Shown here piece after piece: positions 4,849 through 64,000 of a DNA stretch of 64,000 bases. This DNA is from Eucommia ulmoides (taxonomy: Eukaryota; Streptophyta; Magnoliopsida; Garryales; Eucommiaceae), in the NCBI GenBank assembly GCA_016647705.1, contig CM028326.1:1860001-1924000 (forward strand), written 5' to 3'. The notes under the pieces were generated by a model. It made no database searches, was not told where the DNA came from, and saw only the letters and a list, made by a program, of their open reading frames with translations. Position 1 is the first letter of the stretch; every line of letters begins with the position of its first letter. A program made the translations under genes and the position numbers.

Positions 4849-6565
4849 TGTTAAGATGTATTTAGATCAGTTAACATGCACCTCTAGAATCTTTCATTGC
4901 CAAATTGTTATGTTTGTTATGCTGGTTTGTTATAGTTTGTTAAGCTCATCCATATGGCATTTTGGTAGGCTATAAATGTTGTATCTCTTTCCCTTTGATA
5001 TCAATAAAAAGTAATCTTTTATTCTCCATTTTTAATATGGTATTAGAGCAACAAATGTGATGGGAGGCACCAGTGTGAATGACCCAAGTATTTGGAGGAA
5101 CCAATGGGTGAGAAAGAGAGAGTAGTGCAGGAATTACCATTGTCGGGAAGAACCGAAGGATTGATGGCTGATGGGGTCGCAACAGAAGTAGAGAGCCCAT
5201 TAGGAAGAAGCTGCGAGCTGAGGTAGGCGATCATTTGCTGAACTTGAGTTGGGGAAAGATGGTCAGAGGCAGTGGAAATGGCCGGAGCAGTAGCAATTGT
5301 GGGTGGAGATGCTGTATATCGATGATGGGCTGGCTTGGATGCAAAAGAGATGGGATGGGCTGGGTATTGGGCTTTTGGTTTGGGCTTATAGCCAGGGGGA
5401 TATCCATGTAAACTGTAACATTGATCAACTAGGTGATTGGCAAGCCCACAATGAGAGCACTGTTTAGGGCGTTGATTGCGAAATGGCGGAGAAGAAGAGA
5501 TCGCTGCGACGGGAGCAATCGGAGGTGGAACACCAAAGGCAAGAGGGTTAGTCGATGCAGAAGAACCAGCACAGAGGGTCCTCTGTCGCTCCTCCTGAAC
5601 GACAAGGTTGAATACTTTCGGAACCGAAGGCGGAGGGTCCATGAGCAGAATTTGGCCACGAATACCCGCATATGATTCGTTGAGTCCCATTAGAAATTGC
5701 ATTATGTGTTCAGTTTGTTGATGATCGATCCAAGATTTCATGCCCCCACATTGACAAAGAGGAACCGGTTGGAAGTTTTTGAGTTCATCCCATAGAGTTT
5801 TCAATCGAGTGAAATAGGTGTTGAGATCAAGGGATCCTTGAGAGAGACCATGAAGTCGCTGCTTGATCTGGAATATGTGAGGGGCATTGTTTTGGCGAAG
5901 TCGGTCATGAAGATCAGTCCAGGCAGCATGAGCACTATCGAGATAAAAAAGATTGTCTACAATTTCTTTGGAAACAGCATTAAGAAGCCAGGAAAGCATC
6001 ATATTGTTGCAACGAGACCAAATACCAGCAGAGGGATCATCAGGGGATGGTTGCGGAATAGTGCCGTCAACGAAGCTGAGCTTGTTCTTGGCATTGAGAG
6101 CCATCGTCATTACACAAGTCCAGGTATTGTAATTAGGTCCAGTGAGTATGTGAGAAATGAGAACTAAACTAGGGTGATCCCCACTGTGGAGGAAGAAAGG
6201 ACTATGAATATTGTCCATGGAATGAGTTTCCAAAGAAGATTGTGGAGTGGTAGATGGCGATGGAGGAGTTAGAGGTTGGAATCTGTTGTTGGTGACTGGT
6301 GGCTGTTGATGGCCACCACCACGAGCCATGGTGGCTCAAAATAGAAAAAACTGCTAGGTGCAGGGAAGAAAGACTTATGATACCATATTAAAAATGGTGA
6401 ATGAAAGATTAATTTTTTATTGATATCAAAGGGAAAGAAATACAACATTTATAGCCTACCCAAATGCCACATCGATGAGCCTAACAAACTATAACAAGCC
6501 AGCATAACAAACATAACAATTTGACAATGGAAGATTCTAGAGGAATATATCTAAATTCTAACACC

Positions 6566-6566
<1 letters not shown>
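4849..6566 (-). mobile_element. Rearranged Ty1/copia fossil with inverted LTRs
   Basis: On the minus strand an LTR (about 6566-6388) is followed by a primer-site-like TGGTATCA and a long gag region (6329 to about 5043). That region contains a copia gag domain, a CCHC zinc knuckle and the beginning of an aspartic protease motif. The body then stops against a second LTR copy (about 4849-5037) in the opposite orientation, also followed by a primer-site-like motif. Both LTRs therefore face inward. Integrase, reverse transcriptase and RNase H are absent, so the element is broken and cannot move by itself. A further LTR start fragment in plus orientation lies at about 6626-6670, after a 45-base T run. 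Confidence 0.75.
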
Positions 6567-6621
<55 letters not shown>

Positions 6622-23479: not shown

Positions 23480-26440
23480 GGGTCTTTAGCAAAAGCCTCT
23501 TTATCCATTTTGGACAACACCATCGTCTCAATCTCTTCCGACGGTGTCTACATCATCTTCAGTTCCACTATTCCATTTGCTTCTTTTTTCGCAAGGAAGT
23601 TTGCGCACTCGTTCCCTTCTCTTCGTGTGAACTGGATAAGATGGTTGTTATTCTCTAAAAATCTCTAGCAATCGTCCACCCAAGAGTTTAGTTGATGAGT
23701 TTCTAAACACTCTTCTGTGATGAGCGTTATAGCTTCTACAAAAAAGATTACTCCCTTTAATATGTTTCCCAATCCAAGTCAGGACATCCATACCCAAGTC
23801 TTTTCTGAATTGAGTAGGGTCAAATGAATTTTGTCCACAGACTAGCAACTTTGGGGCCTATGTTCTAAGAGCATGATCAATGCATTCAATTTGGTTTATG
23901 ACACATTTGACAAAAAGGTGATGCATTATCAGGCCTATCAACCTTAATCTTATTATTCATGATCTATGGTACGTTATCCACAAGAAGAATTTGATATTCT
24001 GAGGAATTTTGAGTTTCTAAATCCAATTCCATTGAGAAAGCTCTTTCGGATTTTCATTATTTTCTACTAAGCAGTAGGTTGACCTAGTGAGTTTTTTGGG
24101 GTCCAAATCAATATGTCCTCAAGGAGAAGGTTGGGATGATTCATTTTTCCAATAGATTGCAATTTATCTGAAACCAGGTATATAGAATGGGCAAGAGGTA
24201 CCAATTTTTCAGATTTATCAATGATGTTCGAGACTCTCGTATTGTACAAATTTGGAGTTCTCTCATCTCCGAGGGGGTTATCTCCACACCACCAATCCGT
24301 CCATAGATTAATGGAGGCATCATTTCCCACTTTCCATTTAATTCCTTTAGTCAACAACTCTTGTTTTGAAGATGCCTCTCCAGATACGAGAACTATGCAG
24401 TTTATTTTTTTAGGAGTTGGGACTGTTCTATATATCATATCTACTCTTCATTATGTCCACCCATAGGTTGTTCTTTTTAGAAATTGAGTTCCATTCTACT
24501 TTCGCCAGAAAGTCTAAATTTGTGTTTCTCGATTTTCTAATTCCAAGCCCCCCCCACCACCACCACTCGCTGGGTTGGTAAACATAATTCGAATTAAGAA
24601 GATGATTTTTTTTTTTTTTGAGATTCCGTATCACCCTATATGAACTTTCAGTTAATTTAATCAATATCGTCACAAGTTCCAGAAGGAGGTGGTTAATCCT
24701 CTTAGAGTAATTTGGGATGTCAGAGCAGACATATTTGATAAGTGTAATTCTCTTAGCTATTGAAAGATTTTTCGATTTCCAGGAAGTTGGCCTTTTTTGG
24801 ATTTTCCCAGGGAAATGATTGAAACTCTTCACGTTAAGTCTATTATGAATTGATGGGACTTCAAGCTAAATCTCAAGGTCATCAATAAGGGTAATTCCAA
24901 ATTTCCTACTAATATTTCGGGCTTCCACTTTGGGTATATTAAGGGAAACAAAAAGTTTTAGACTTAGCACGATTAATTCTATGGCTAGTGCATTTGGTAA
25001 AGGTATCAAGAATTCGCAATATATTATTGCAGTACTTTTCTTCCATTCTTGAGAAAATTATAAGATCATCTACGAAGAAAATGTGGGAAATAACTGGTCA
25101 TTTCTTAGAAGTTTTAATATATTTCCATTTCTCTCTTTTGGTGTCTTCGATGATAAGGTGTGATAGTCTTTCCATGCACAATACAAATATATAAAAAGAT
25201 AGAGGGTCTCCCTGTCTAAGGCTTTTGGAAGGTGAAAACTCTTAGAGAGGTACTTCATTCCAGATAATAGACACAGAACAATTTTTTATACAGCTCATAA
25301 TCAGGGATATCTAAACTTGGGGAAGATTGAAAAAGTGAGTTTCTTCAATAAAATCCCAGCTTAATCTATCAGATGCTTTTTCAAGGTCCAATTTCAATAT
25401 TAACCCCCATTCTCTCTTTTTATTTCTTCTAACATAATGGATAACTTCTTGAGCAATAATAACGTAATCAATAGTCATCTTACCCAGAATAAAGCTATTT
25501 TGGAAAGACCCAACAATATCTTTCAGGAGGGTCTAAGCCTAACAACCATAATTTTAGTGATAATTTTATAAGAGTTGCATAGGCTTATGAGTCTAAATTG
25601 GGTAATTGTTTCAGGCATATCAGTTTTAGGGATAAGGGCAACAAAGGTTTTATTGTTTCTTTCTAGCATACTCTTATCAACAAAACATTAAGATACAAAA
25701 TCACAAAAATCCTTACCGATGATGTCCCATTTTTTCTTGAAACAAATAGCTTGGAAACCATCGGACTAAGAGCTTTAAAGTCTTGCGTATTGTTTAAGGC
25801 ATCTTTAATTTCTTTTTCACAATAGGCCCTAGTAAGAAAAGTATGATTTCTTTCCCTTATGATGAAATTGGATCCATTCTGGTTGGGCCATTGAAGGCTT
25901 GACTTTTCTTCTTTAAATAAATTTATAAAATAATCTTGATCGAGATTTGTAATGAGTTCAGTTTGACTAACCCAGTTATTGTTACAATATTTGAGGGATA
26001 AAATTTTGTTTCTTTACCTTCTTTGGTTGGTAGCAATATGAAAGAAAAAAAAATTGTATTATCCAAATCATCCAGTTTTTCCGAGTATCTAATTTCTCGA
26101 GCTTTTTGAAACCCAGTAAGCATGGCTAGTAAGTTATTCTAAGTTTTAAAAAATATTTTTGAAAATATCTTTATTTCAGATCATCATATCCTCTATAAAC
26201 TGATCAATTTTATCAAGCAAATTAGTTTGGTTAGAGGACCACGAATTTTAAAGAATTGTGAGGAAATTAGGATGAGATAATCACATAGCCTCAAATCTAA
26301 AGGGTCTCCTTATTCTATGAGAATAATCAAAGCAGAGTGATCAAAGTACGTATGAGGCACAATTTCCCCCACATCCCCTTCTAGTATGGTTAAATTAAAT
26401 TATATTCTATACCCTTTAAATTTACATCTGAATTTAACTG
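23480..26440 (-). mobile_element. L1-type LINE ORF2 remnant, unit 1
   Basis: Minus-strand coding remains in the order expected for a plant L1 LINE, from right to left. A linker and reverse transcriptase region occupies about 26100-24850, with recognisable pieces such as LIPKTDMPET and ISLCNS. A zf-RVT region with WTDWWCGDNPLG lies at about 24320-24270, and an RNase H-like end at about 23850-23500. Many stops and frameshifts interrupt it, so it is a pseudogene. Copies of the same insertion lie at 38680-44540 and 56028-56742. The unit-2 copy lacks about 0.8 kb that is present here (about 23840-24660). The true 5' end is not located. Confidence 0.75.
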
Positions 26441-43056: not shown

Positions 43057-44540
43057 TCAAGAGTTCGCAATATATTATCACAACACTTTTTCTCCCCTCT
43101 AGAGAAAATTATAAGATCATCTACGAAGAAAATGTGATAAATAACTAGTCCTTTCTTAGAAGTTTTAATATCTTTTCATTTCCCTCTTTTCGTGTCTTCA
43201 ATGATAAGGTGTGATAGTCTTTCCATGCACAAGATAAACGTATAAGAAGACAAAGGGCCTCCCTATCTAAGGCCTCTAAAAGGTGAAAACTCTTGGAGAG
43301 GTTCCCCATTCCAAAGAATAGACACGGAAGAATATTTTAAACAACTCATAATTAGATATATCCAAACTTGGGAAAGATTGAAAAAGTGAGTTTTTTCAAT
43401 GAAATCCCAGCTTAATCTATCATATGCTTTTTCAAGGTCCACTTTCAATATTAATCCCCCTTCTTTGTTTTAGTTCTTCTAAGATAATGGATAATTTCTT
43501 AAGCAATAATAACGTTGTCAATAGTCATCGTACCCATAATAAAGCTACTTTGGAAAGGCCCAACAATATCTTTCTGGAGGGTCTATGCCTAATAACAATA
43601 ATTTTAGTGACAATTTTATAAGAAGAGTTCCATAGGCCTATGGGCCTAAATTACGTAATTGTTTCAGGCATATCAATTTTAGAAATAAGGGCAACGAAAG
43701 TTTTATTGTTTCTTTCTAGCATACTCTTAACAACAAAATATTTAAATACAAAATCATAAAAATCCTTATTGACAGTGTCCCAATTTTTCTGGAAAAAGAT
43801 TGCTTGGAAACCATCGATTCTAGGAGCTTTAAAATCTTGCGTATTGTTTAGGGCAACTTTAATTTCTTTTTCACAATGGGGCCTAGTAAGAAAAGTACGA
43901 TCTCTTTCCCTTGTGATGAAATTGGATCTATTCTGGTTGGGCCATTGAAGACCTGACTTTTCTTCTTCAAATAAATTGATAAAATAATCTTGAACGAGAT
44001 TTTTAATGAGTTCAGATTCACTAACCCAGTTATTGTTACAGTCTTTGAGGGATAAAATTTTGTTTCTTTTTTTTCTTTGGTTGGTAGCAATATGAAAAAT
44101 TTTGTAGTCTTGTTGGCAAGAGTAGGCCGTTGGATCCTGGTTTTTGATATCAATATATTTCCTCTTGTCTAAGAATCAATCTATACTTTTGACGTAAATT
44201 TTTCTCCAAATCATCTAATTTTTTTCAAGTATCTAATTTCTCTAGCTTTTAGAATCACAATAAGCATGGCTAGTAAGTTATTCTTAGTTCTACAAAATAT
44301 TTTCGAAAACATCTTCATTTCAGATCATGATATCCTTCATAAACTGATTAATTTTATCAAGCAAACTAGTTTGGTTAGAGGACCACGAATTTTAAAGACT
44401 TGTTAGGAAATTAGGATGAGATAACCACATAGCCTCAAATCTAAAAAGTCTCCTAATTCTATGAGAAGAATCAATGCCTAAAACATGAATAATCAAAGCA
44501 GAGTGATCAGAGTACATACGAGGATCTCTATTCCCCTGTA

Positions 44541-46061: not shown

Positions 46062-49000
46062 ATGATCGCAAAAAACTTTGTTTTCTATGCTTTGTTGTAT
46101 CCATCAGTCTTCTTACAATGCTCCATATCCCAAGACACAATCACTCCGAACAAATCCATAGTGGATGTCGATAATCTGTTTTCCCCAAACAGAAGATTCG
46201 CGTTGGGATTTTTCTCTCCCGGAAACTCCAAAAACAGGTACCTCGGCATATGGTTCAGAACAACCCCTGATGTAGTTGTTTGGGTCGCCAACAGAAACAA
46301 CCCGATTTCAGATTCTGGAGGAACCTTAACAATCAGCGAAAATGGCGAACTGGGTCTTTTCAATCAAACCCGTTTCGCTATTTGGCATTCAAATTTTTCA
46401 AGAATTGCGGTAAACCCGATTGGGAAATTTTTGGACAATGGAAATTTCGTCGTTCTCGACACGAGTAGTGATCATGAAAACCGCGTTTGGCAAAGCTTCG
46501 ATTTCCCTTCCCAAACGCGGCTTCCGGGCATGAAGATGACAGAAACCTCATACTTAACATCGTGGCGAACCGAAGATGATCCATCGATCGGGAATTTCAG
46601 TTACAGAATTGAAAATCACGGGCTGGCTCAAACCGTCGTTAGCTCTGAATTCAAAAAACTGTTTCGAAGTGGGACGTGGAACGGGGTACGATTGAGCGGG
46701 CTATCAACTTTCGTACGCAAATTCGAGTTTAACGGCGATCGTCTGATTTCTCTTTCAGAGTCCTACAACAACTCAGTCATCATCATAGTGAGCTTGAACC
46801 CTTCGGGTTTGCTCCTCCGGGGCATAATGGATGAACAAAATCGAAAATGGAATTTAATTTACACCTTACCATACGACCCCTGCGATAATTATGCTCATTG
46901 TGGTGCTAACAGCATTTGCAAAATCAATGAATCACCGATATGCCAGTGTTTGCACGGGTTCACCCCAAAATCGCAGAGAGAATGGGATGTCCTTCAATGG
47001 TCTAGTGGGTGTGTAAGAAAAGAGAACTTGAGTTGTAACAGTGAAGAAGGTTTCCTTAAAGTTGAAAGTGTGAAGTTGCCTGATCTTTTAAGGTTTTGGG
47101 TGAACACTAGCATGAACCTGGGTGAATGTAGAGCCGAGTGCTTGAAAAACTGTTCTTGCACTGCATATGCAAATGCTTACGTTAGTGGTGGAGGCAGTGG
47201 CTGCTTGATATGGGTTGAAGACTTGGTTGATATCAGAGAGATTAGAGTTAATGACAGTGATCAAGATATCTATATACGCTTATCAGCTTCTGAATTCGGT
47301 ACAAGTACTTTTATTATTATAATAATAATAATAATTATTATTATTATTTACTAGTTTTTCAACATTCCGAAAAAAGAGATTAATCCACATTTGTTTTCCA
47401 TCTTTTTGTGCTCTAGATATCAATATTTCAGTTCACAGGAAGAGAAAAGTTGGGAAAATTGTATTACTTTCCGTTGTTCCAGGGATGATAATTTTGGGCC
47501 TAGTTTTCGGGTGTGTTTTTATGAAGATAACATCAAAGAGAAGATGTAACTCCTTTTATATTAGAACTCTTACCTTCTCTTTAAATTTAAGATTTTAATA
47601 AATTATGCAGAAGCGAAAAGGAAGAAGGAAAGCTTAGAATTGCCTTTGTTTGATTTGGCAACCATTGCCTCTGCAACAAACAACTTTTCTCCCACAAACA
47701 TAATTGGAGAAGGCGGTTTCGGTCCTATTTACAAGGTAAAATTCGCTTGTCTATGTATATATATATATATATATACATATATCCTAGTGAATAAAATTTC
47801 TTCTACAATTGTAGATTTAAGACAATGGTGTTTTTACACTTCGTATCCGTGAAGTTTGACCAAAATCTCACATTGGTCCCCATGGTTTTAATTTAAACAT
47901 ATAATATCAAAAAAATAAAAAAAAAACTTAAAGTTTCCTAATCATCCCACTACAATCCAAATAATTATACCCATTACAATTTTGGACAGAAAATAGTAAC
48001 TTGCTGCACATATGACTGAGACTTTATGAGTATTTTCAGTCTCCTTCTTTCCCTCCTCCCGTTCTCTTTTCAACCCAAATACTCAGAATTCACACACACA
48101 CACATACATATATATATATACATACATATATATATATATGCAGGCCGTTTCTATAGAACATTTACAAAAGGAGAAAAAGAAAATGATGGAAATGTCCTTA
48201 AGGTTGTCATAAAAAATAGTTAGGTGCATGGACGATGAATGTTTGTCATCCAAAATTGTAATATATCTATTAATTTGGACTGAAGTGGGTTTATCACGAA
48301 ACTTCAAAGTGTCATGCGTTCAAATTGAAACTACAGGGACAAAGTGAAACAATGGTCAAACTTTAGGGGTGCAAAGTGTCAAAACCCGTAAGACATAGAA
48401 ATATTGATATATGCAGGGAAAATTATCGATGAAACAAGAAATAGCGGTGAAGAGACTGTCGAAAAAATCACGACAAGGTCTGCAAGAGTTTAAGAATGAG
48501 ATAGTTTCGATTTCTAAGCTCCAACATAGGAATCTAGTGAGGATGTTGGGATGCTGCATTCAAGGAGAAGAAATGATGTTAATCTACGAGTACATGTCCA
48601 ATAAAAGCTTGGATTACTACATCTTCGGTACAATTTTTTTTATCTAATTCACTCAAGAGTAATTGACTGACTTATATGTTTTTCATTCAAACTTTCCATA
48701 ACGGTGTGTTAGATGACAAGAGAAGCAATTTATTGGCGTGGAGAAAACGGTTTGATATAATCATGGGGATTGCTAGAGGACTACTATATCTTCATCAAGA
48801 TTCAAGACTAAAAATTATTCACAGGGATCTAAAAGCAAGCAATGTTCTACTAGACGGTGATCTGATCCCAAAAATTTCTGATTGCGGGCTAGCTAGAATA
48901 TTTGAAGGAGACCAAATTTGTGGGAAAACAAAAAGAGTAATCGAAACATAATAAGTTTTATAATTATTATAGTGAATCCCATATTTATGTGCATGTGTGG

Positions 49001-49843
49001 GTGTGTGTATCCTTGTTAAGATGTAAATATATTAATAAAATTATGCAGTGGTTATATGTCTTCAGAGTATGCAATTGATGGGAAATTCTCTACAAAATCC
49101 GATGTCTTTGGCATGTGGGTGCTTTTGCTAGAGATAGTGAGTGGACAAAGGAACAGAGGTTTTTGCCACCAAAATCCCTACCACAGCCTTTTGGGACATG
49201 TAAGAAAAATAGGAGCGGATCCACTATGAGATTAATGGCCTCCATTACTCATTTTAAATTATTTAAAAAATAATTTTCATGATTCAAAAAATATTTCTAC
49301 CCAAAAAAAGTAGATATGATATAAATTAATAAAATTTGAATTTATTAACTGAATTTTTTTTTGATAAAATTAATCTTAATTTATAATTATACACTTGTTA
49401 TTTTATAGTATATCAATATAGTTATACTCGGCCACTATAATTTTTTTATCCACCCCCTGAGAAAATAGTTGTTTTTTTCCCTAGTATACTCTCTAAATTT
49501 GTTATTCTGAAGTGTTCTATAACTATTAAAAATGGCTATTTGTTAGGCATGACTGCTTTGGAAGGAAGAGAGAGGTTTTGAGCTGGTGAACGAATGTTTG
49601 GGGGATTCGTACGAGGTATCAGAAGCTCGAAGGTTCATTCAGGTGGGGTTATTGTGTGTCCAGAAGCTTTCGGAAGATAGGCCAACCATGTCGTCTGTTG
49701 TGTTTATGTTAGGTAATGAAGAAGTAATATTGCCTCAACCTAAAGAGCCTGGTTTCTTTGTGGAAAGACATGCTACTAATACAGGGTCATCGATAGACAA
49801 TTCAAATGATATAGAGACAATAACAATAATTGAAGCTAGGTAG
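46062..49843 (+). pseudogene. S-RLK copy 3, open ectodomain, decaying kinase
   Basis: Same gene structure as copy 1: exons 46062-47298, 47417-47545, 47611 (or 47614)-47735, 48417-48627, 48713-48950, 49049-49199, 49547-49843. Exon 1 is fully open, with signal peptide, bulb-lectin, S-locus, EGF-like and PAN regions; it is five codons shorter than copy 1, mainly at the GLSTFVRK site. The membrane exon is also open. Exon 2 ends in T instead of G, so splicing to the usual acceptor gives a TAA at the junction; the CAGAAG tandem acceptor offers a site three bases on that gives TCG. In the kinase, DFG is DCG, the exon 5 donor GT is AT (48951-48952) so reading continues straight into TAA, SPE is SSE, and exon 7 has TGA as its second codon. 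A full kinase is not possible; a membrane or secreted ectodomain product remains possible. Confidence 0.8.
47832..48388. mobile_element. Ancestral foldback MITE in intron 3 (copy 3)
   Basis: Arms with ACACTTCGTATCCGTGAAG on the left and TTTAGGGGTGCAAAGTGT on the right are inverted relatives, as in copy 1. Here the element makes up nearly all of the 681-base intron 3. A CA/TA microsatellite lies at about 48093-48140. Confidence 0.7.
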
Positions 49844-50343
49844 ATGACAGAGGATTTCATCATAATAGTATTTTTTTTACAAATCAGAAACATTTGTACT
49901 TGAAGCTAGGTGTATTGATATGTTTTTCTGACATTCTTGAAACATTTGTGTAAAAATAAAAAATTCAAGACTTGGATTTGTTTTATGGTCCAACCCACTT
50001 TCTAACTCTCTCAGGCTGCATGATCATGTCAATCTAAAAAGCTTTAGCTGGTGTTTGGTTGCACAGAATTTGAGTCTTGAAATTGCCTTGCAGTTTGGAG
50101 AATCCAAATTTTATTTCTAAACCACAACTTATAGCCGCCAAATGGGTACTTAAAACCCCCTATTTTAGGATAACGGTTAAATCCAACCAGCCACCTATAA
50201 TCCAGATTGAGCAGCCACGACGATTATGGGTCCCACCTCATGTGGTCAAACTGGTGAAGGTCAACAAAACATTCGACAAAGGTAATTCTTGCCGACCTCC
50301 GAATAAGACTGACAACTTCATTGTCTCATCCCATGATTTATGG
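49844..50343. other. 3' spacer of S-RLK copy 3
   Basis: Shared tail with the other copies (GGTGTTTGGTTGCACAGAA near 50050 and the CCGACCTCCGAATA block near 50294). It is mirrored at about 61809-62351. The last five bases TATGG (50339-50343) are the left target duplication of the TRIM. Confidence 0.6.
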
Positions 50344-50944
50344 TGTTAGATTTTTGTCCCACATCGTCCATCTAAGAGTTCCCAAGTCACTATATAAATT
50401 AAAAGATTTATTCTACTTAACACCATATAGTTTTAAGTTGGAACTTCCTAACATGGTATCAGAGCCAAAGTTATGAGTTTCTCATTCCCTCGTTGTCAAA
50501 TCATCCGTGTAAGCCAGGGATTGCACATTTCTTATAATTTTCTCGTAGTCAAATCATTCGTGCAAACCGGGGGTTGCACACAAGGACGAGTGTTAGATTC
50601 TTATTTCATATCGCCTATCTAAGAGTTCCCAAGCCACTATATAAATTAAATGAGTTACTCCATTTAAAACCATATGTTAAGTTGGAACCTCCTAACATGG
50701 TATCAAAGCCAAGGTTATGGGTCTCTCATTTCCTTGTAGTCAAATCATCTGTGCAAGTCGGGGGTTGCACATTTCTCATCATTCCCTCATAATCAAATCA
50801 TTCGTGCAAATCGGGGGTTGCAGTCAAGGGCGAGAGTTAGATTCCTGTCTCACATCGCCCATCTAAGAGTTCCCAAGCCACTATATAAATCAAATGAGTT
50901 ATTCCACTTAACACCATATGGTTTTAAGTTAGAACCTCCTAACA
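50344..50944 (+). mobile_element. TRIM retroelement with three tandem LTRs
   Basis: Three LTRs of about 107-110 bases (50344-50453, 50591-50697, 50835-50944), each starting TGTTAG or a close variant and ending CTAACA. The first two are followed by a primer-site match TGGTATCAGAGC or near match (50454, 50698), and are separated by two short non-coding internal regions of about 137 bases. The whole unit has a perfect target duplication TATGG (50339-50343 and 50945-50949). This fits a terminal-repeat retrotransposon in miniature in its known tandem form. An inverted copy is at 61209-61808. Confidence 0.85.
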
Positions 50945-51241
50945 TATGGGATTAGTAAATACCTAAGAATGAGAATAAAAACTAATCTTACACACCAAAT
51001 ATGAGAATATAATGGTCATTTCTATAACCATTTCATTCATTTGTTGAATCCTACCTACCAAACATGCTGGTATTGTCAGCGTCAACCAAGGGATGGTTTC
51101 GAAAGAGACCCATCCTACTCGTCAGACCTCCAATCCGTTCATCCACGTCAGCAATACCACCCCATGCTTCACATTATCTGCTAGAGTCTAGTTTTAGACA
51201 TCAATGAGAAAGAATCAAAACTTAATTCAAGGCGTTCTCTC
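50945..51241. other. Shared spacer between TRIM and copia derivative
   Basis: No gene. Mirrored at about 60902-61208 in the inverted arm, with blocks such as AACATGCTGGTATTGTCAG. Confidence 0.5.
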
Positions 51242-52384
51242 TGTTAAATCATTATGATTTCAGATCCCCCATAATTGTAAATAATGAGAATAAATGTGCA
51301 ATCAATCAATAGTAATTATAGGTTATAACTTAGGATCTAAATTCCATGATTTACTCTTTATACATGTATAAATAGACACCTCCTTGAAAGATGAATACAT
51401 GCGGTATCAGCCAAAACGATCATTTCTTCTTCTTCTTCTTCTTTTCAGCTATCACTATTGCATTAACAGTCGTCTTTGCTGCTTCGCGATCAATCTTCCC
51501 AACACTTGCAAAACCCTTTTCTTTCACGAACCAATCCTTTTCCTCTAGATCATTGAAGTCGAGATCTTTTCTCTCCTTTCTCTGTAAGATTTCTACTTAT
51601 TTCCATTAGTTTTCAATTTTTCTAAAAAATTACAGAATCAGTCACAGCTTTCTAGAATCTGAAAAAACTGGCCCACGTCTTTTTATAACCAACAAAAACA
51701 AACACACAACTCTATAGGAACTGTCCCACATCTTTATACAACCTATAGAAACAATCCCAAACATTTTTTTGACTTACTGAATCAGCTCCAAACTTTTCTG
51801 GAAGATACAAAATTAGCACCAAACCTTTCAAGTAATTCAAAAAAACAACCCATTGTCTCTCGCTCAAGCGTTGAAACCGAGTACCAATCTCTTACTCATG
51901 TTTGTGCCGAATCCATGTGGATATTCCATCAGCTTCAAGAGTTGCAATTTTCCATCTCCACGCCTATCACCTTACCATGTGATAATCTCAGTATTACTTA
52001 CATGGCTTTAAATCCTGTGTTCCACGCTCGTACTTAGAACATTGAACTGGATTACCATTTTATACAGGAACGCATTTTATTGGCACACATCAAGTCTAAT
52101 TTATTCCTTTTAAGGATCAACTTGCAAACATATTCCCTAAATGACTTCACAAAACCTACTTTCATCTTTTACCGTCCAAACTTGTCTCTCCCAAATAGCC
52201 GAGTTTGCAAGGGAGTGTTAAATCACCATATTTTCAGCCCCTCCTAATTGTAAATAATGAGAATAAATGTGCAATTAATCAATACTAATTATAGGCTATA
52301 ACCACAGGATCTAAATTCCATGATGTACCCTATATACATTAGAAATTCTCCTTCTAGATCTTCGAAAAAAAACTGCATCTTTGT
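51242..52384 (+). mobile_element. Internally deleted Ty1/copia derivative
   Basis: An LTR starting TGTTAAATC (about 51242-51400) is followed by a primer-site-like GGTATCAGCC, a leader of about 450 bases, then only the end of RNase H (about 51850-52205, with motif SSVETEYQSL) and the beginning of a second LTR (from about 52217). Gag, protease, integrase and reverse transcriptase are missing. The fossil is mirrored at 59737-60901. At its right end it overlaps a reverse-oriented copia integrase fragment. Confidence 0.7.
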
Positions 52385-52735
52385 TGCAAATCACTTTCTT
52401 GTCAAGTGGATCGCACAATCTGTAGCCAAAGTCCTCACGTGCATACCTCAAGAACATGTATTGTTTTATCTTGCTATCAAGTTTCAATCTCTTATCTTTC
52501 GGAACATGAATAAATGCCTTGCAATAAAATACCTTCAAATGCTCGAAGTAAACGCCTTTTTTCCTGTCCACACACTTTGTAGGATGCCACCGTCTAAAGG
52601 AGTTGATGGGTACAAATTGATCAAGTCAATTATTGTTCTCATTACCTCACCCCAAAATTGATTCAGGCAATTTTGCATGGAATCTCTCATCTTTCGAAAC
52701 ATGTCGTGTTACAGTTCACGTTGTGGATTTCAACA
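52340..52735 (-). mobile_element. Ty1/copia integrase fragment
   Basis: Minus-strand remains of the C-terminal part of a copia integrase, with words NCLNQFWGEV, PSTPLDGG and KLDSKIKQ typical of that region. Isolated fossil piece without LTRs, broken. Only its first 45 or so bases are also present in the inverted arm at 59737-59780. Confidence 0.65.
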
Positions 52736-55171: not shown

Positions 55172-56027
55172 AGGACAGAGGATTCATGTCGATCTAAAAA
55201 AGCTTTAGCTGGTGTTTGGTTACGCGGAATGCGAGTCTTGAAATTGAAAATTAAACATGAATACATGTAAAAATTCAATATGTGTGTGTGTGATTTGTAC
55301 TTAAAGTATTGAAAGACAATCATTTGCTAACACAAGCCACCTCATAGCCCGATTGCCTTAAAGTTTGGGGAATCCAAATTGTATTTTTGAACCACCTCTC
55401 TTCCAGATTGAGCGGCCACGACAATTGTGGGCCCCACCTCATGTGGTCGAGTTGGTAAAGGTCAACCATACGTTGAACAAAGGCACTTCTTGCCGACTTC
55501 CGAATAGGACTGACAACTTTAACCCCATTTGGTTAGTGTTTCTGATTCTTGTTCCCACTTCCAAAATTTTGGAATCGATGTATAGAAATACATTTAGTAA
55601 CACGTTTTTGTTCCCATCCTCTCTTCTCTCTATCGCTGACGAGCAGGATTAGGTAAGAGCTATATATCTCTCTCTCTCTTTCTCTCTCCCTTTCTTTGTT
55701 TCATTCCGATTTCAGAAATCAAAATTAGGGTTCGATTTCTTCCTTTTCCCTTATAAATTTCCTACAAAAAAAACTATATTATATGAAGTTACTTGTATAT
55801 CTTTGAGCATTTAGTTGGGAAATAGAATGGGAAGGAAGGAGTAGACTGAAATTCCCATGAAACCTCTTAAAATAGTTAGGTGCATGATAGGTAATTATTT
55901 TATGTCCAAGGTTACATCACTACCCGAGACCCATCTCAGACCTCTCCATCTCTACTCCAACAAGGAAGAAGACCTCCAACATAGTGACCAGACTATACCG
56001 TTGGTGTCGACCAAGATTCGGCATCAA
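55172..56027. other. 3' spacer of copy 4
   Basis: Shared tail (GGTGTTTGGTTACGCGGAA near 55212, CGACTTCCGAATAGGACTGA near 55495, CGCTGACGAGCAGGATTAG near 55634, CT microsatellite at 55665-55690). From about 55905 it changes to sequence not seen elsewhere in the window until the LINE starts near 56028. No gene. Confidence 0.55.
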
Positions 56028-56742
56028 CAGTCATCTTACCCAGCATGGAGCTACTTTGGAAAGGCCAAACAATATCTTTCAGGAGAGTCTAAGCCTAGCA
56101 ACAATAATTTTAGTGGCAATTTTACAAATAGAGTTGCATAGGCTTATGGGTCTGAATTGGATAATTGTTTTAGGGATATCAATTTTAGGAATAAGGACAA
56201 CAAAAGTTTTATTGTTTCTTTCTAGCATACTTTTATCAACAAAACATTTAGATACAAAATCATAAAAATCCTTATCAACAATGTCCCAATTTTTTTTTTG
56301 GAAAAAGATAGCTTGCAAACCATGGGGTCTAGAAGCTTTAAAGTTTTGCGTATTGTTTAAGACATCTTTAATTTCTTTTTCACAATGGAGCCTAGTAAGA
56401 AAAGCATGATCTCTTTCCCTTATGATGAAACTGAATCTATTTTGGTTGGGCCATTGAAAACTTGACTTTTCTTCTTTAAATAAAATTGATAAAATAATCT
56501 TGAACGAGATTTTTAATGAGTTTAGGTTGACTAATCTAGTTACTGTTACAATATTTGAGGGATAAAATTTTGTTTTTTTTCTTTCTTTGGTTGGTAGCAA
56601 CATGAAAAAAATTTGTATTCTCCAGATCATCCAATTTTTCTGAGTATCTAATTTCTTGAGCTTTTTGAAACCTAGTAAGCATGGCCAATAAGTTATTCTA
56701 AGTTTTAAAAAATATTTCCGAAAACATCTTTATTTCAGATCA
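56028..56742 (-). mobile_element. L1-type LINE fragment, unit 4
   Basis: Matches the reverse transcriptase part of the unit-1 LINE (about 25480-26170), beginning CAGTCATCTTACCCAG. A stretch of 183 codons stays open on the minus strand (56079-56630), with recognisable pieces such as VLIPKIDIP, FRPISLCNSICK and KIIVARL, better preserved than the other copies. It is cut at 56742 by the CACTA element. Confidence 0.7.
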
Positions 56743-57299
56743 CACTACAATAAATATGACTTTTGCTTACAAAATTTTGCTACGGAATAAAAATTTCGTA
56801 GCTAAACGTTAGTTTTTCACAATGAACTACAAAATTTGTTGCCAAATATCTTTCCCCCAAAATGCTTTTGGCGAAAATGAAATAAATACAAAATTGATTC
56901 GTAGCAAAAAATATTTTTTAATTATTAACTACGACAAGTATTTTTTCGTCACTAAAGAACTGTATAGGCTACGAAAATAAATTTTGTAGCCAAAAATTGA
57001 ATTTTTTTTTTTTTTTTTTTTGTGACAATTATAAATTTTGTTGCTAAATATATGGATTACTCAACAAGTTCTTTAATTTGTTGCAAATGAGTATTATTCG
57101 AGTTGACGCCCAATGAAATTAAAGTCGAAGTAATAAAAAATATTACTTAAAAACATATGAAAACTAAAATTATTGTCCAAAAAATAAAAACTAGATTAAT
57201 AATAATACATAATATTATATTTATAATAATTAAACCGCAATTTTAAAAGAAAAAATGAAATAAATAAAAAAAGAAAACATTTTTTTTTTAAATCCAAAT

Positions 57300-58344
57300 T
57301 CGAGTGTTTTTATAATAGCGGCAAGCATTATTACCTCTCCCCCGCCCCTTTGCATTTCATTCCCGGCTCACCAAAATCTTGTTCGCGCCCAAGTTGTGAA
57401 CAAAACCGAAGTTGTGTATCAAATGTGTGTGCAGGCCCAAACAACAACGTTGCAAATGAAAATTTAGAGAGAGAGAGAGATGCCCAAATTCACCCCATCC
57501 ATGGTCGAAACTACTGCGATTTTCGTTGAGGACGGCGAACGGCGCAGACAGGTGAATGTTGAAATCGCGACGGAAAAAAGAAAGGTTTGATTTCATACTC
57601 AGATCTGATTTGTTTCGATCTTGACCTGTGTTTGGGTATGTTCGCTGCCTTCCTTTCTGTTCAGTTCTGTGATGCTGCTTCCACTGTTCAGATCTTCTTT
57701 GTGATTTTGATGTTCGTCGTAATGCTTAGCTCAGAAAGAATGAAGGCTCCAGAGAGAAGAATGGATGTTTTTCTGAAAGGGCTGTTTACCCCTCTCTGTT
57801 CTGGAATCGATTTTCACAAAATCGATTCTTGGAGCCTGTGATTTCTTTGTATTCGGAAAACAATCAACCCTTTCTCGCCATCGCCAAACAAACAACAACG
57901 TTCAACCAAACACAACCTTATCTTCTGCGGTTGCATTTTCGTGCTTCTTCTGCGTTGTCTGTCGTCTATCTATCTACTACTATGAACCTTGAAAAAAAAA
58001 AAAAAAACTTGAATGAGCCAGGTGACTGAGTTTTATTAAATACTGACAACACGGGTGGGTTTGGGTTCTCATTATTGAAAGAATCTAGTTAGGTTTGGGC
58101 ATAAATCTGGTAAACGGGGTTAAAAATTAAGCAATTTTTTAGATTGACATGCTAACTTTAGATAGTACATGGATGGTTAAGATTGTCATAGGGGTCTTTT
58201 GCTGTCTAAGGATCTGTGAGCTAAACCCTATATTCTAATGGATTTTCTGAAGTTTGCTTCGTGTTCTATTGTGAATTACTAGGTAATATTGTCTTGCGTT
58301 TTAAGCTTATGGTCAATAACACCTTCCCTCAAATTTTCTTGTAG
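57300..58344 (+). other. Unrecognised transcribed-looking region inside the CACTA element
   Basis: Less AT-rich than its flanks, with a GA run at 57466-57480, a Kozak-like ATGGTCGAAAC region near 57500, and a possible donor GTGAATG near 57552. Open frames at 57587-57841 and 57829-58029 have no recognised domain. It could be the leader and first exon of a captured gene or of the element's own transcript. Not assigned. Confidence 0.3.
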
Positions 58345-58655
58345 CAATTGGCTCTTTTAAGGAGCAGGTGGAGGCAATCCCTAACCTTGGCCAGTCAGTG
58401 GAGATTTTGATCCGTTTACTCTGTGCTGTCCCTGGCTGGAATGAGAAAAATGTTCAGGTGCCTTGTGTTTTTGTTTTCCTTGTTGGGGGCTCCTGCTGAT
58501 GGAAGTTGTGTCTTCTGTTTTTTTGACTTTTAAGTTAACCACCCTCCTCAAATCTGCAAACATGCAGGTGCAGCAACAGGTTATTGAAGTCATTACATAC
58601 ATAGCTTATACGGCTTCCAAATTCCCGAAGAAATGTATTGTCCTTTGCCTTCTTG
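58345..58655 (+). pseudogene. MOR1: Captured fragment of MOR1 (XMAP215/TOG microtubule polymerase)
   Basis: Two adjoining exons are recognisable: 58345-58457 encodes a stretch with SFKEQVEAIPNLGQSVEILI and LLCAVPGWNEKNVQ. After a 110-base GT-AG intron (58458-58567), 58568-58655 encodes VQQQVIEVITYIAY and ASKFPKKCIVLCL. These closely match a TOG-array segment of the plant MICROTUBULE ORGANIZATION 1 protein, which promotes microtubule growth. A normal MOR1 is about 2000 residues, so this is about 67 codons. The retained intron shows capture from genomic DNA, not from mRNA. Both exons are open and in phase, suggesting recent capture or selection. It could be spliced into a CACTA transcript; it cannot act as MOR1. 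Confidence 0.75.
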
Positions 58656-59236
58656 GTTGGTTTCCGGTTCTGGTTTCTACATACATGTTTGCGTTGGTGG
58701 ATCTGTTTTTTTTTTTTTTTTTCTCTCTTCTTTTTTTTTTTTCTTTTTAAGTTCATTTTAGTGGGGTTTGTAGTCATTGTTAAACTGAATTTTGTTCACT
58801 CAGATGCTTGTTTATTTGGATATATATGTTCAGTCACGTATATATGGATGTATGCATGTGTCTGCAATGGCTTGTGTACTGTTTTTTGTTCTCTAGTTTT
58901 TATATCTTTTCCTAGAAATCTTTGGCTGACTGGAACATGAGTAGAATTTTTTCATTTTAAATGCTCCTGAAGGCTCCCAGCAGTTCAAAAACTCTGTTCA
59001 CATGCAGTTTAAACGCTTTTGAAGGCTGCTCTGTTTTTGTTTCTTGTTGCTCTGCTGTTTCGTTTATATTAATTGTTCATAATATATTTGTTTAATTGTT
59101 GATTTATATTGTTAATTATCTGTTCAATTGTGAATTTATGTTAAAATTTGTTTGTTTAATTGTTAATTTCTGTTGAATTTTGGCCTTCTTTAATGAATTC
59201 AACCACCTGCAGTTTTTTTTGGTTGTTTGATTATAG

Positions 59237-59547
59237 AAAAACAAAGCCACCGGGAAAAAGGAAGAGCACGATAGTTAAGCCTAAAAATCTTAGTAAAGTG
59301 CTTTATAATCATACCGTGGGGTCTAGATCCTTTATGGAGACACGACATGCATTGGTATGTTATCAAACTACTAATTTGAATTTTATTTTTAGTTAGACAA
59401 TTCAAATAATAAAGGTTATATTTTCTTATTTATTTGCAGAAGAACAAGGACACTAGTGAGCTACCTAATCTGATTGAATTTCACAAGTTGACACACTTTA
59501 ATTCAAAATCTGAAAAGTGGATAGCGCCTAAGATAGAAGAACTTTTT
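59237..59547 (+). CDS. Partial Ptta/En-Spm-type transposase-like exons
   Basis: Exon 59237-59354 (acceptor TTATAG, donor GTATGT) encodes a basic stretch KTKPPGKRKS followed by HTVGSRSFMETRHAL. Exon 59440-59547 (acceptor TTTGCAG, donor GTGAG) encodes KNKDTSELPNLIEFHKLTHF and a WIAPKIEELF end. The order GSRSF, a spacer, then a THF-x-W motif resembles the plant Ptta/En/Spm transposase family carried by CACTA elements. Only two exons are visible; the rest is absent or cut at 59736. The match is by motif pattern alone. Confidence 0.5.
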
Positions 59548-59736
59548 GTGAGTTTTTTTAAGTACTTGAAATTTGTAGTTTGTCTTGATAGTAACACCAT
59601 TAAAATGTGGATCCACTGTAGCAACCTCTGGCATAATGTCTTTTAAGCATAAAATGTCATGGTCACCTAATGTCTTCACTTTGTTAAGGTTGGGGTATTA
59701 ACATTATTTTGAAGAATTTCCATTGTCTTTTAAGCA
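59548..59736. other. Distal part of truncated CACTA element
   Basis: AT-rich sequence with no CACTA terminus. It ends where identity to the inverted arm begins (AAGATGCAG near 59738). Confidence 0.35.
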
Positions 59737-60901
59737 AAGATGCAGTTTTTTTTCGAAGATCTAGAAGGAGAATTTCTTATGTATAAAGGGTACATCATGG
59801 AATTTAGATCCTGTGGTTATAGCCTATAATTAATATTGATTAATTGCACATTTATTCTCATTATTTACAATTAGGAGGGGCTGAAAATATGGTGATTTAA
59901 CATTCCCTCGCAAACTCGGCTATTTGGGAGAGACAAGTTTGGACGGTAAAAGATGAAAGTAGGTTTTGTGAAGTCATTTAGTGAATATGTTTGCAAGTTG
60001 ATCCTTAGAAGGAATAAATTAGACTTAATATGTGCCAATAAAATGCGTTCCTGTATAAAATGGTAATCCGGTTCAATGTTCTGAGTACGAGCGTGGAACA
60101 CAGGATTTAAAGTCATGTAAGTAGTGCTGAGATTATCACATGGTAAGGTGATAGGCGTGGAGATGGGAAATTGCAACTCTTGAAGCTGATGGAATACCCA
60201 CATGGATTCGACACAAACATGAGCAAAGATTGGTACTCGGTTTCAGCGCTTGAGCAAGAGACAATGGGTTGTTTCTTTGAATTGCTTGAAAGGTTTGGTG
60301 CTAATTTTGTATCTTCTAGAAAAGTTTGGAGTTGATTCAGTAAGTTAAAAAAATGTTTGGGACTGTTTCTATAGGTTGTATAATGATGTGGGACAGTTAC
60401 TGTAGATTCCATAAAGTTGTTTGGTTGTTTTAGTTGGTTATAGAAAGACGTGGGGCAGTTTTTTCAAATTCTAGAAAGCTGTGACTGATTCTGTAATTTT
60501 TTAAAAAAGTTGAAAACTAATGGAAATAAGTAGAAATCTTATAGATAAAGGAGAGAAAGGATCTCAACTCCAACGATCTAGAGGAAAAGGATTGGTTCGT
60601 GAAAGAAAAGGGTTTTGCAAGTGTTGGGAAGATTGATCACGAAGCAGCAAAGACGACTGTTAGTGCAATAGTGAGTTGAAAAAAAGAAGAAGAATAAGAA
60701 AGGATCATTTTGGCTGATACCATGTTAGAAGGCTGGTACCGTATGTATTCGTCTTTCAAGGAGGAATCTATTTATACATGTATAAAGAGTAAATCATGGA
60801 ATTTAGATCCTAAGTTATAGCCTATAATTACTATTGATTGATTGCACATTTATTCTCATTATTTACAATTATGGGGGATCTGAAATCATAATGATTTAAT
60901 A
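59737..60901 (-). mobile_element. Internally deleted Ty1/copia derivative, inverted copy
   Basis: Counterpart of 51242-52384. This copy has the more complete first LTR (about 60724-60901 on the minus strand, ending in TAACA) next to a primer-site match TGGTATCAGCC. It also has the RNase H end (about 60300-59910) and part of the second LTR (about 59900-59780). It is a broken fossil lacking most of gag-pol. Confidence 0.7.
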
Positions 60902-61208
60902 GAGAGAACGCCTTGATTTAAGTTTTGATTCTTTCTCATTTATTGTTATTGATGTCTAAAACTAGACTCTAGCAGATAATGTGAAGCATGGGGTGGTATT
61001 GCTGACGTGGATGAACGGATTGGAAGTTTGACGAGTAGGATGGGTCTCCTTCGAAGCCATCCCTTGGTTGACACTGACAATACCAGCATGTTTGGTAGGT
61101 GGGATTCAACAAATGAATGAAATGGTTATAGAAATGACCATTATATTCCCATATTTGGTGTACAAGATTAGTTTTTATTCTCATTCTTAGGTATTCACTA
61201 ATCCTATA

Positions 61209-61808
61209 TGTTAGGAGGTTCCAATTTAAAATCATATGGTGTTAAGTGGAATAACTCATTTGATTTATATAGTGGCTTGGGAACTCTCAGATGAGTGATA
61301 TGGGATAAGAATCTAATACCTGCCCTTGAGTGTAATCTCCAGTTTGCACGAATGATTTGATTACGAGAGAATGATGAGAAATGTGCAACCCCGGCTTGCA
61401 CGGATGATTTGACTACGAGGGAATGAGAGATCCATAACCTTGGCTCTGATACCATGTTAGGAGGTTCCAACTTAACGTATGGTTTTAAGTGGAGTAACTC
61501 CTTTGATTTATATAGTGGCTTGAGAACTCTTAGATGGGTGATGTGGGACAGGAATTTAACACCCGCTCTTGAGTGCAACTCTCGGTTTGCACGAATAATT
61601 TGACTACGAGGGAATGATGAGAAATGTGCAACTCCCGGCTTGTACGAATGATTTGACTACGAGGGAATGAGAGACTCATAACCTTGACTCTGATACTATG
61701 TTAGGAGGTTCCAACTTAAAACCATATAGTGTTAAGTGAAATAACTTCTTTGATTTATATAGTGACGTGGAAACTCTCAGATGGACGATGTGGGACAGGA
61801 ATCTAACA
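61209..61808 (-). mobile_element. TRIM retroelement with three tandem LTRs, inverted copy
   Basis: Reverse-complement counterpart of 50344-50944 with the same three-LTR layout, TGTTAG starts, CTAACA ends and TGGTATCAGAGCC-type primer sites (seen on the plus strand as GGCTCTGATACCA near 61442). The flanking 5-base duplication is degenerate here (CTATA against TCATA), so this copy has drifted more. Confidence 0.75.
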
Positions 61809-62351
61809 TCATAAATCTTGAGATGAGACAATGAAGTTGTCAGTCTTATTCGAAGGTCGGCAAGAATTGCCTTTGTCCAACGTTTTGTTGACCTTCACTA
61901 GTTTGACCACATGAGGTGGGACCCACGATCGTCGTGGCCGCTCAATCTGGATTATAGGTGGCTGGTTGGATTTAACAGTTATCATAAAATGGGGGGGGTG
62001 GGGGGTGGGTTTAAGTACCCATTTGGCAACTATAAGTTGTGGTTTAGAAATAAAATTTGGATTCTCGAAACTGAAGTCAATTAGACTGAGAATTCTCCAA
62101 ACTGCAAGGCAATTTTAAGACTCAAATTTCGTGCAACCAAACACCGGCTAAAGCTTTTTAGATCGACATGATCATGCAGCCTGAGAGAGTTAAAAAGTGG
62201 TCTGGACCATAAAACAAATCCAAATCTTGAATTTTTTATTTTTACACAAATGTTTCAAGAATGTCAGAAAAACATATCAATACACCTAGCTTCAAGTACA
62301 AATGTTTATGATTTGTACAGAAAATACTATTATGATGAAATCCTCTATCTT
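61809..62351. other. 3' spacer of S-RLK copy 5
   Basis: Mirror of 49844-50343. A G-run lies at 61991-62008. No gene is seen. Confidence 0.55.
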
Positions 62352-63776
<1,425 letters not shown>

Positions 63777-63803
63777 TTGCATATATCAATATTCTATTTG
63801 TTA

Positions 63804-64000
63804 TGGGTTTTGACACTTTGCACCCTTGAAATTTAACCATTGTTTCACTTTGTCCCTATAGTTTCAATTTGAATACATGACACCTTGAAGTTTCGTGATA
63901 AACCCACTTGAGTCCAAATCAATAGATACATTACAATTTTGGATGGCAAACATTTATCGTCCGTGCACCTAACTATTTTTATGACGACCTTAAGGACATT
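63804..64000. mobile_element. Ancestral foldback MITE in intron 3 (copy 5), partial
   Basis: Starts GACACTTTGCACCCTTG next to exon 4 and runs off the window. It corresponds to the right arm of the MITE in copies 1-3. Confidence 0.65.

Follow-up and report, generated by a model that had tools for sequence, protein, structure and literature searches.

A CACTA element of Eucommia ulmoides carrying a genomic fragment of the MOR1 gene

Introduction

Capture of host gene pieces by CACTA-type transposons is well known. The 64,000-nucleotide stretch of Eucommia ulmoides DNA analysed here (hereafter called the window; C2:1860001-1924000, in a genome of 946.7 Mb and 391 contigs) contains a CACTA-like terminus followed by two exons resembling MOR1 and by transposase-like exons. 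This arrangement raises the questions of whether the MOR1 sequence belongs to the transposon, how it came to be there, and whether it could act on the gene from which it derives. No paper on MOR1 together with a transposon and CACTA was found in the open-licence literature.

Nested tandem and inverted duplications surround the element, and nearby are sequences that we take, from reading alone, to be copia-like and receptor-kinase-like. The features discussed below are as follows.

56023-56742, minus strand: LINE fragment hosting the insertion, recognized by identity to its paralogues and ending exactly at 56742
56743-57100, plus strand: CACTA 5' terminus CACTACAATAAATATGA with subterminal repeats, from the start of the family copies and the motif count
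57101-58159, plus strand: 5' portion of the CACTA element and probably its leader, from alignment to L034, L035, L037 and L038
58160-58874, plus strand: captured MOR1 fragment, 93% identical to the parent on C13
58345-58457, plus strand: putative MOR1 TOG3 exon, whose first two bases complete a codon
58568-58655, plus strand: putative MOR1 TOG3 exon, leaving one base for the next codon
58875-59730, plus strand: distal interior of the CACTA element, which lacks its final ~1 kb and with it the 3' terminus
59237-59354, plus strand: TnpA-type transposase exon, fused at 59273-59286 across a deletion
59440-59547, plus strand: TnpA-type transposase exon, matching Transposase_24 when joined to 59237-59354
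59728-64000, minus strand: arm of an inverted segmental duplication, pairing with 48191-52390

Results

The sequence CACTACAA at 56743 is the 5' end of the CACTA copy. Searching the genome with positions 56743-57743 yielded at least 55 matches, the best 40 of 151 candidates having been scored; as only the best candidates were scored, diverged copies may exist. In 19 family loci, not counting the window copy, similarity starts at base 56743 (14 loci), one base later (2), at the fourth base (1) or at the 33rd (2), and hence at most 4 bases from 56743 in 17/19. None of these loci shares the left flank of the window copy, bar three AT-rich matches of 25-31 bp to the LINE flank, which we took as chance similarities. 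Short subterminal repeats, a hallmark of CACTA (En/Spm) elements, are also present: a motif picked after the sequence had been read occurs seven times in the first 358 bp, compared with a maximum of two in 560 other segments of that length. The common start of the family copies and the motif count bear out the original prediction of a CACTA terminus with subterminal repeats. A further exact CACTACAA is found in the window at 47948.

Both termini of L034, L036 and L038 are of CACTA type, the 5' one with altered bases. L034 (2388 bp) is flanked by an exact 3-bp duplication, ATT, and L036 (2707 bp) by an exact TAA, while two of the three bases of the target-site duplication match in L038 (7299 bp). 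Among the five relatives compared, no 3-bp duplication was found for L035 or L039, and the 3' match of L039 does not correspond to the family terminus.

The element had also been placed inside a LINE, and its flank agrees. Positions 56023-56742 are 88% identical to 25467-26183 and 84-87% identical to 43518-44327 of the window, and both paralogues run uninterrupted across the insertion point (25467-26333 and 43518-44477), without the CACTA element. A reverse transcriptase domain (PF00078, E 4.9e-17) is encoded on the minus strand at 24.0-25.5 kb, adjoining the 25.4-kb paralogue. Pfam searches gave no match in the three minus-strand frames of the LINE flank and none that was convincing in the matching stretch of the paralogue. 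The bases at the 5' side predict a TCA duplication, the other side of the window copy being lost.

Within the probable leader, a segment of ~50 bp (57531-57583) runs in the opposite direction to its counterpart in L037 and L038. Positions 57720-58007 form a 288-bp foreign repeat with copies elsewhere of up to 94-95% identity; in L050 and L052, 13-bp inverted ends (AATGCTTAGCTCA/TGAGCTAAGCATT) were noted by eye on these copies, which makes the repeat MITE-like. We considered this segment as a second captured gene and rejected the idea as unsupported, the segment being a dispersed repeat instead.

The MOR1 fragment (715 bp) aligns with positions 1274-2064 of L002 on C13 and spans intron-exon-intron-exon-intron of the parent MOR1/XMAP215 gene, with an 83-bp deletion in its first intron relative to the parent. 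A DNA search of the genome with 401 of these 715 bp (58300-58700; all three candidates scored) identified three places only, namely the window itself, the parent (95%) and L003 on C1 (86%). The limits of the two window exons were set from the reading frame and the splice signals, and the exons encode 66 residues corresponding to positions 34-99 of the 231-residue parent query. The parent exons match the Pfam family XMAP215_CLASP_TOG (PF21041, E 5.9e-12) and TOG3 of Mini spindles (4y5j, E 1.5e-21), while the 66-residue piece alone matches no TOG family; a TOG domain is thus recognized in the parent and not in the window piece. Compared with plant MOR1, animal XMAP215 and Mini spindles TOG3, the piece supplies 66 TOG3 residues in the frame of the parent, out of 226 aligned. 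MOR1/XMAP215 is a multi-TOG protein, and what the window holds does not reach a third of a single TOG domain.

The parent continues as TOG3 exons on both sides of the copied stretch. MOR1-like open stretches were followed by eye over ~19 kb, and on this by-eye reading the parent gene appears to be whole. Its joined TOG4-like stretch matches HEAT (7.8e-8) and, below the cut-off, PF21041 (5.8e-5). Pfam searches of the parent frames gave one HEAT match in L044, too weak to show that the gene is whole, nothing in L045 and nothing for 74 residues close to the beginning of L044. As to another MOR1 gene as donor, the search with 58300-58700 revealed none beyond the window, the parent and L003; a diverged one may exist. 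L003 (1503-2408; C1:41.518 Mb) is another MOR1 TOG3 fragment that has diverged further: it is 86% identical to the parent, overlaps the captured exons and has one changed splice donor and a 9-bp exon deletion. A ribosomal protein S24e piece lies nearby (PF01282, E 2.5e-6, first 32 residues).

The alternative that the segment is part of a MOR1 gene residing at this site was rejected, CACTA sequence flanking it on both sides and the parent being on C13. Two MOR1-like exons still separated by their intron had been predicted, and they are indeed a copy of parental genomic DNA, introns included; their similarity to MOR1/XMAP215 is supported by the 93% identity to the parent and by its TOG matches. 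Our analysis confirms that the CACTA element carries a genomic MOR1 fragment.

Related elements reveal what stood at the place of the fragment. In L037, the flanking CACTA sequence continues through 235 bp (6350-6584) at the place of MOR1. This stretch is whole in L038, but split there by a ~2.2-kb insertion; 183/235 bp are present in L035 and 129/235 bp in L034, and it is absent from L036, L039 and the window. Because L034 and L035 also lack 58043-58159, only L037 and L038 combine the replaced stretch with the left flank. As L035, L037 and L038 have ordinary CACTA sequence at that place, the MOR1 DNA replaced DNA of the element. The left joint (58159/58160) is blunt, with no overlap, and at the right joint TTG (58872-58874) is common to the parent and the CACTA element. 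Allowing for up to 4 mismatches in 17, we detected no inner CACTA terminus between 56743 and 59735.

Downstream transposase-like exons had been predicted as well, and the evidence points to them: joined, 59237-59354 and 59440-59547 match Transposase_24 (E 9.1e-6), though with 26.3 bits, below the 28.7-bit cut-off. No transposase domain was detected in unjoined stretches of the window or in L037 and L038 pieces read in three frames. At one codon of the first transposase exon, the window has AAG, three of five relatives (L035, L037 and L047) have ATG, and L038 and L046 have ATA; judging from its place, this ATG is the probable former start codon. About 0.9-1 kb, present in L035, L037, L038, L046 and L047, is deleted from the window at 59273-59286. 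As the MOR1 piece is upstream of the probable former start codon, it is probably situated in the leader.

The MOR1 and transposase exons have the same orientation. The two MOR1 exons total 201 nt, a multiple of three, with AG and GT kept at all four borders, and the prediction that the frame is open across the splice stands for this pair. It fails where they are joined to the next, transposase exon: the exit phase does not fit, and a stop follows after 12 codons. The cassette has no in-frame ATG, and if read unspliced it is preceded by a stop nine codons ahead of its first full codon. With its phase mismatch, its missing ATG, AAG in place of the transposase ATG and the loss of the 3' end of the element, the copy does not support the proposed fusion of a TOG fragment to a transposon protein.

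The element is truncated by an inverted duplication, in which 48191-52383 pairs with 64000-59735 at 91% identity; the pairing goes on into the next 30 kb, and the 7.35-kb spacer holds the CACTA element. Family sequence ends at 59718 according to the aligned relatives and at 59730 according to two weaker genome matches, and the duplication arm starts at 59728-59735. The breakpoint therefore cuts the element near 59730, which accounts for the absence of its 3' end. The final ~1 kb of L038, with its 3' terminus, was found neither in the window nor in the next 30 kb; TTGTAGTG is absent from the window, and no 3' terminus was found on its plus strand at up to 3 mismatches in 17. We looked for the lost 3' end nearby and discarded this possibility: L037 and L038 match this region no further than 59718, L038 finds no counterpart in the 30 kb that follow, and the six matches of L037 there (65-552 bp, 70-80%) all come from parts of it outside its 3' end.

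Differences between the window and the parent affect 5/201 exon and 29/501 intron positions, a contrast that is not significant (Fisher P 0.08); constraint on the parent would explain the lower exon divergence. With L003 as an outgroup, three of the five exon changes fall on the window side and two on the parent side. Bases specific to the window copy are found, for example, at 58383, 58608 and 58637. All five changes are nonsynonymous, which has a probability of ~0.19 without selection, and no selection is apparent from them. The introns diverge from those of the parent by 0.060 (Jukes-Cantor), and at rates that we assume, the captured piece would presumably be 2-4 million years old. The nearest relative of the 5' part of the element is L034, at 89% identity. 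As the intron divergence is smaller than the divergence from L034, it would fit a capture after the lineages split.

Discussion

How did MOR1 DNA enter the element? Very probably, a LINE was hit by a CACTA (En/Spm-type) element, and an internal stretch of the latter (235 bp in L037) was replaced, by repair copying, with a 715-bp genomic MOR1 piece, introns included, in a copy that is now immobile and likely carries a neutral passenger. The blunt and 3-bp joints and the missing inner CACTA termini suggest that the MOR1 DNA was copied in while a break in the element was being repaired, a mechanism that we read from the two joints of a single copy. Subsequent decay would have removed the probable start codon and caused the internal deletion. 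The inverted duplication removed the 3' end and would have left the copy immobile, presumably as a later step. Capture is best read as a one-off.

A different route has been proposed for Pack-CACTAs (PMC8903248; PMC13317346), by which two neighbouring CACTA elements flanking MOR1 would have moved together and then lost their inner ends. Decay could have erased an old inner terminus, and this model itself foresees such loss, so the missing inner termini are compatible with it. In the 19.9 kb examined, the parent locus has one exact terminus-like 8-mer, CACTACAA or TTGTAGTG, ~10 kb from the copied piece, against an estimated chance expectation of ~0.6. However, the 19.9 kb around the parent has no match longer than 40 bp to three CACTA queries, and the fragment joins internal CACTA sequence on both sides with only ~235 bp of the L037 sequence missing, which under this model requires that two separate end deletions happened to agree. 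We regard tandem insertion as unlikely, and break repair fits better. What broke the element is another matter. That the MOR1 piece is filler DNA from ordinary double-strand-break repair, which hit a CACTA copy by chance, is a possibility to be taken seriously, if somewhat less probable than not. It overlaps with our preferred explanation, and only what caused the break sets it apart; it foresees the same joint features, and the dispersed MOR1 piece L003, whose 9.9-kb surroundings have no match to the CACTA relative L038, is in keeping with it. The sequence offers nothing to tell it apart from repair of an excision gap.

Could the fragment act on MOR1? The original prediction suggested that, within a transposon transcript, it might produce a decoy TOG peptide or small RNAs lowering MOR1. 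The shared orientation with the transposase exons, the four kept splice sites and the open 201-nt cassette would favour such a role. Against it, the cassette has no ATG of its own in frame, has an upstream stop if unspliced, is out of frame with the next exon and encodes only ~66 of the 226 aligned TOG3 residues, and the truncated element is the sole CACTA copy with a MOR1 piece found by the genome search. We consider this role highly improbable, and hold out even less hope for a version in which the element is immobile and its leader cassette would yield copy-specific small RNAs or a TOG3 peptide tuning MOR1. Most likely, the MOR1 piece is a neutral passenger that, were the locus transcribed, would add no more than two exons to an untranslated leader.

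Comparison with known systems places this element in context. The CACTA element Tgm-Express1 of soybean contains five host gene fragments, lies within an intron of a gene that is expressed and has its fragments spliced into transcripts (PMC1947982). The window copy resembles it as a CACTA element with an intron-containing host fragment and usable splice sites, and differs in having one fragment and no 3' end and in being known from sequence alone. With Pack-CACTA and other Pack-TYPE elements, as described in PMC8903248, it shares the CACTACAA terminus and a host gene piece inside the element. Pack-CACTAs are non-autonomous, have both termini and are devoid of transposase sequence (PMC8903248), whereas the window copy retains a transposase remnant and has no 3' terminus. 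A 2026 review leaves open whether DNA transposons capture fragments of unlinked genes by a further, as yet undiscovered mechanism (PMC13317346). The element described here is relevant to that question, as gene DNA of another contig took the place of an internal stretch and the joints overlap little or not at all. One case does not settle whether such a mechanism exists. The captured piece can be compared base by base with its parent and with related elements free of it, which makes this a clean single example, and its joints are the useful part of the case for the question of capture.
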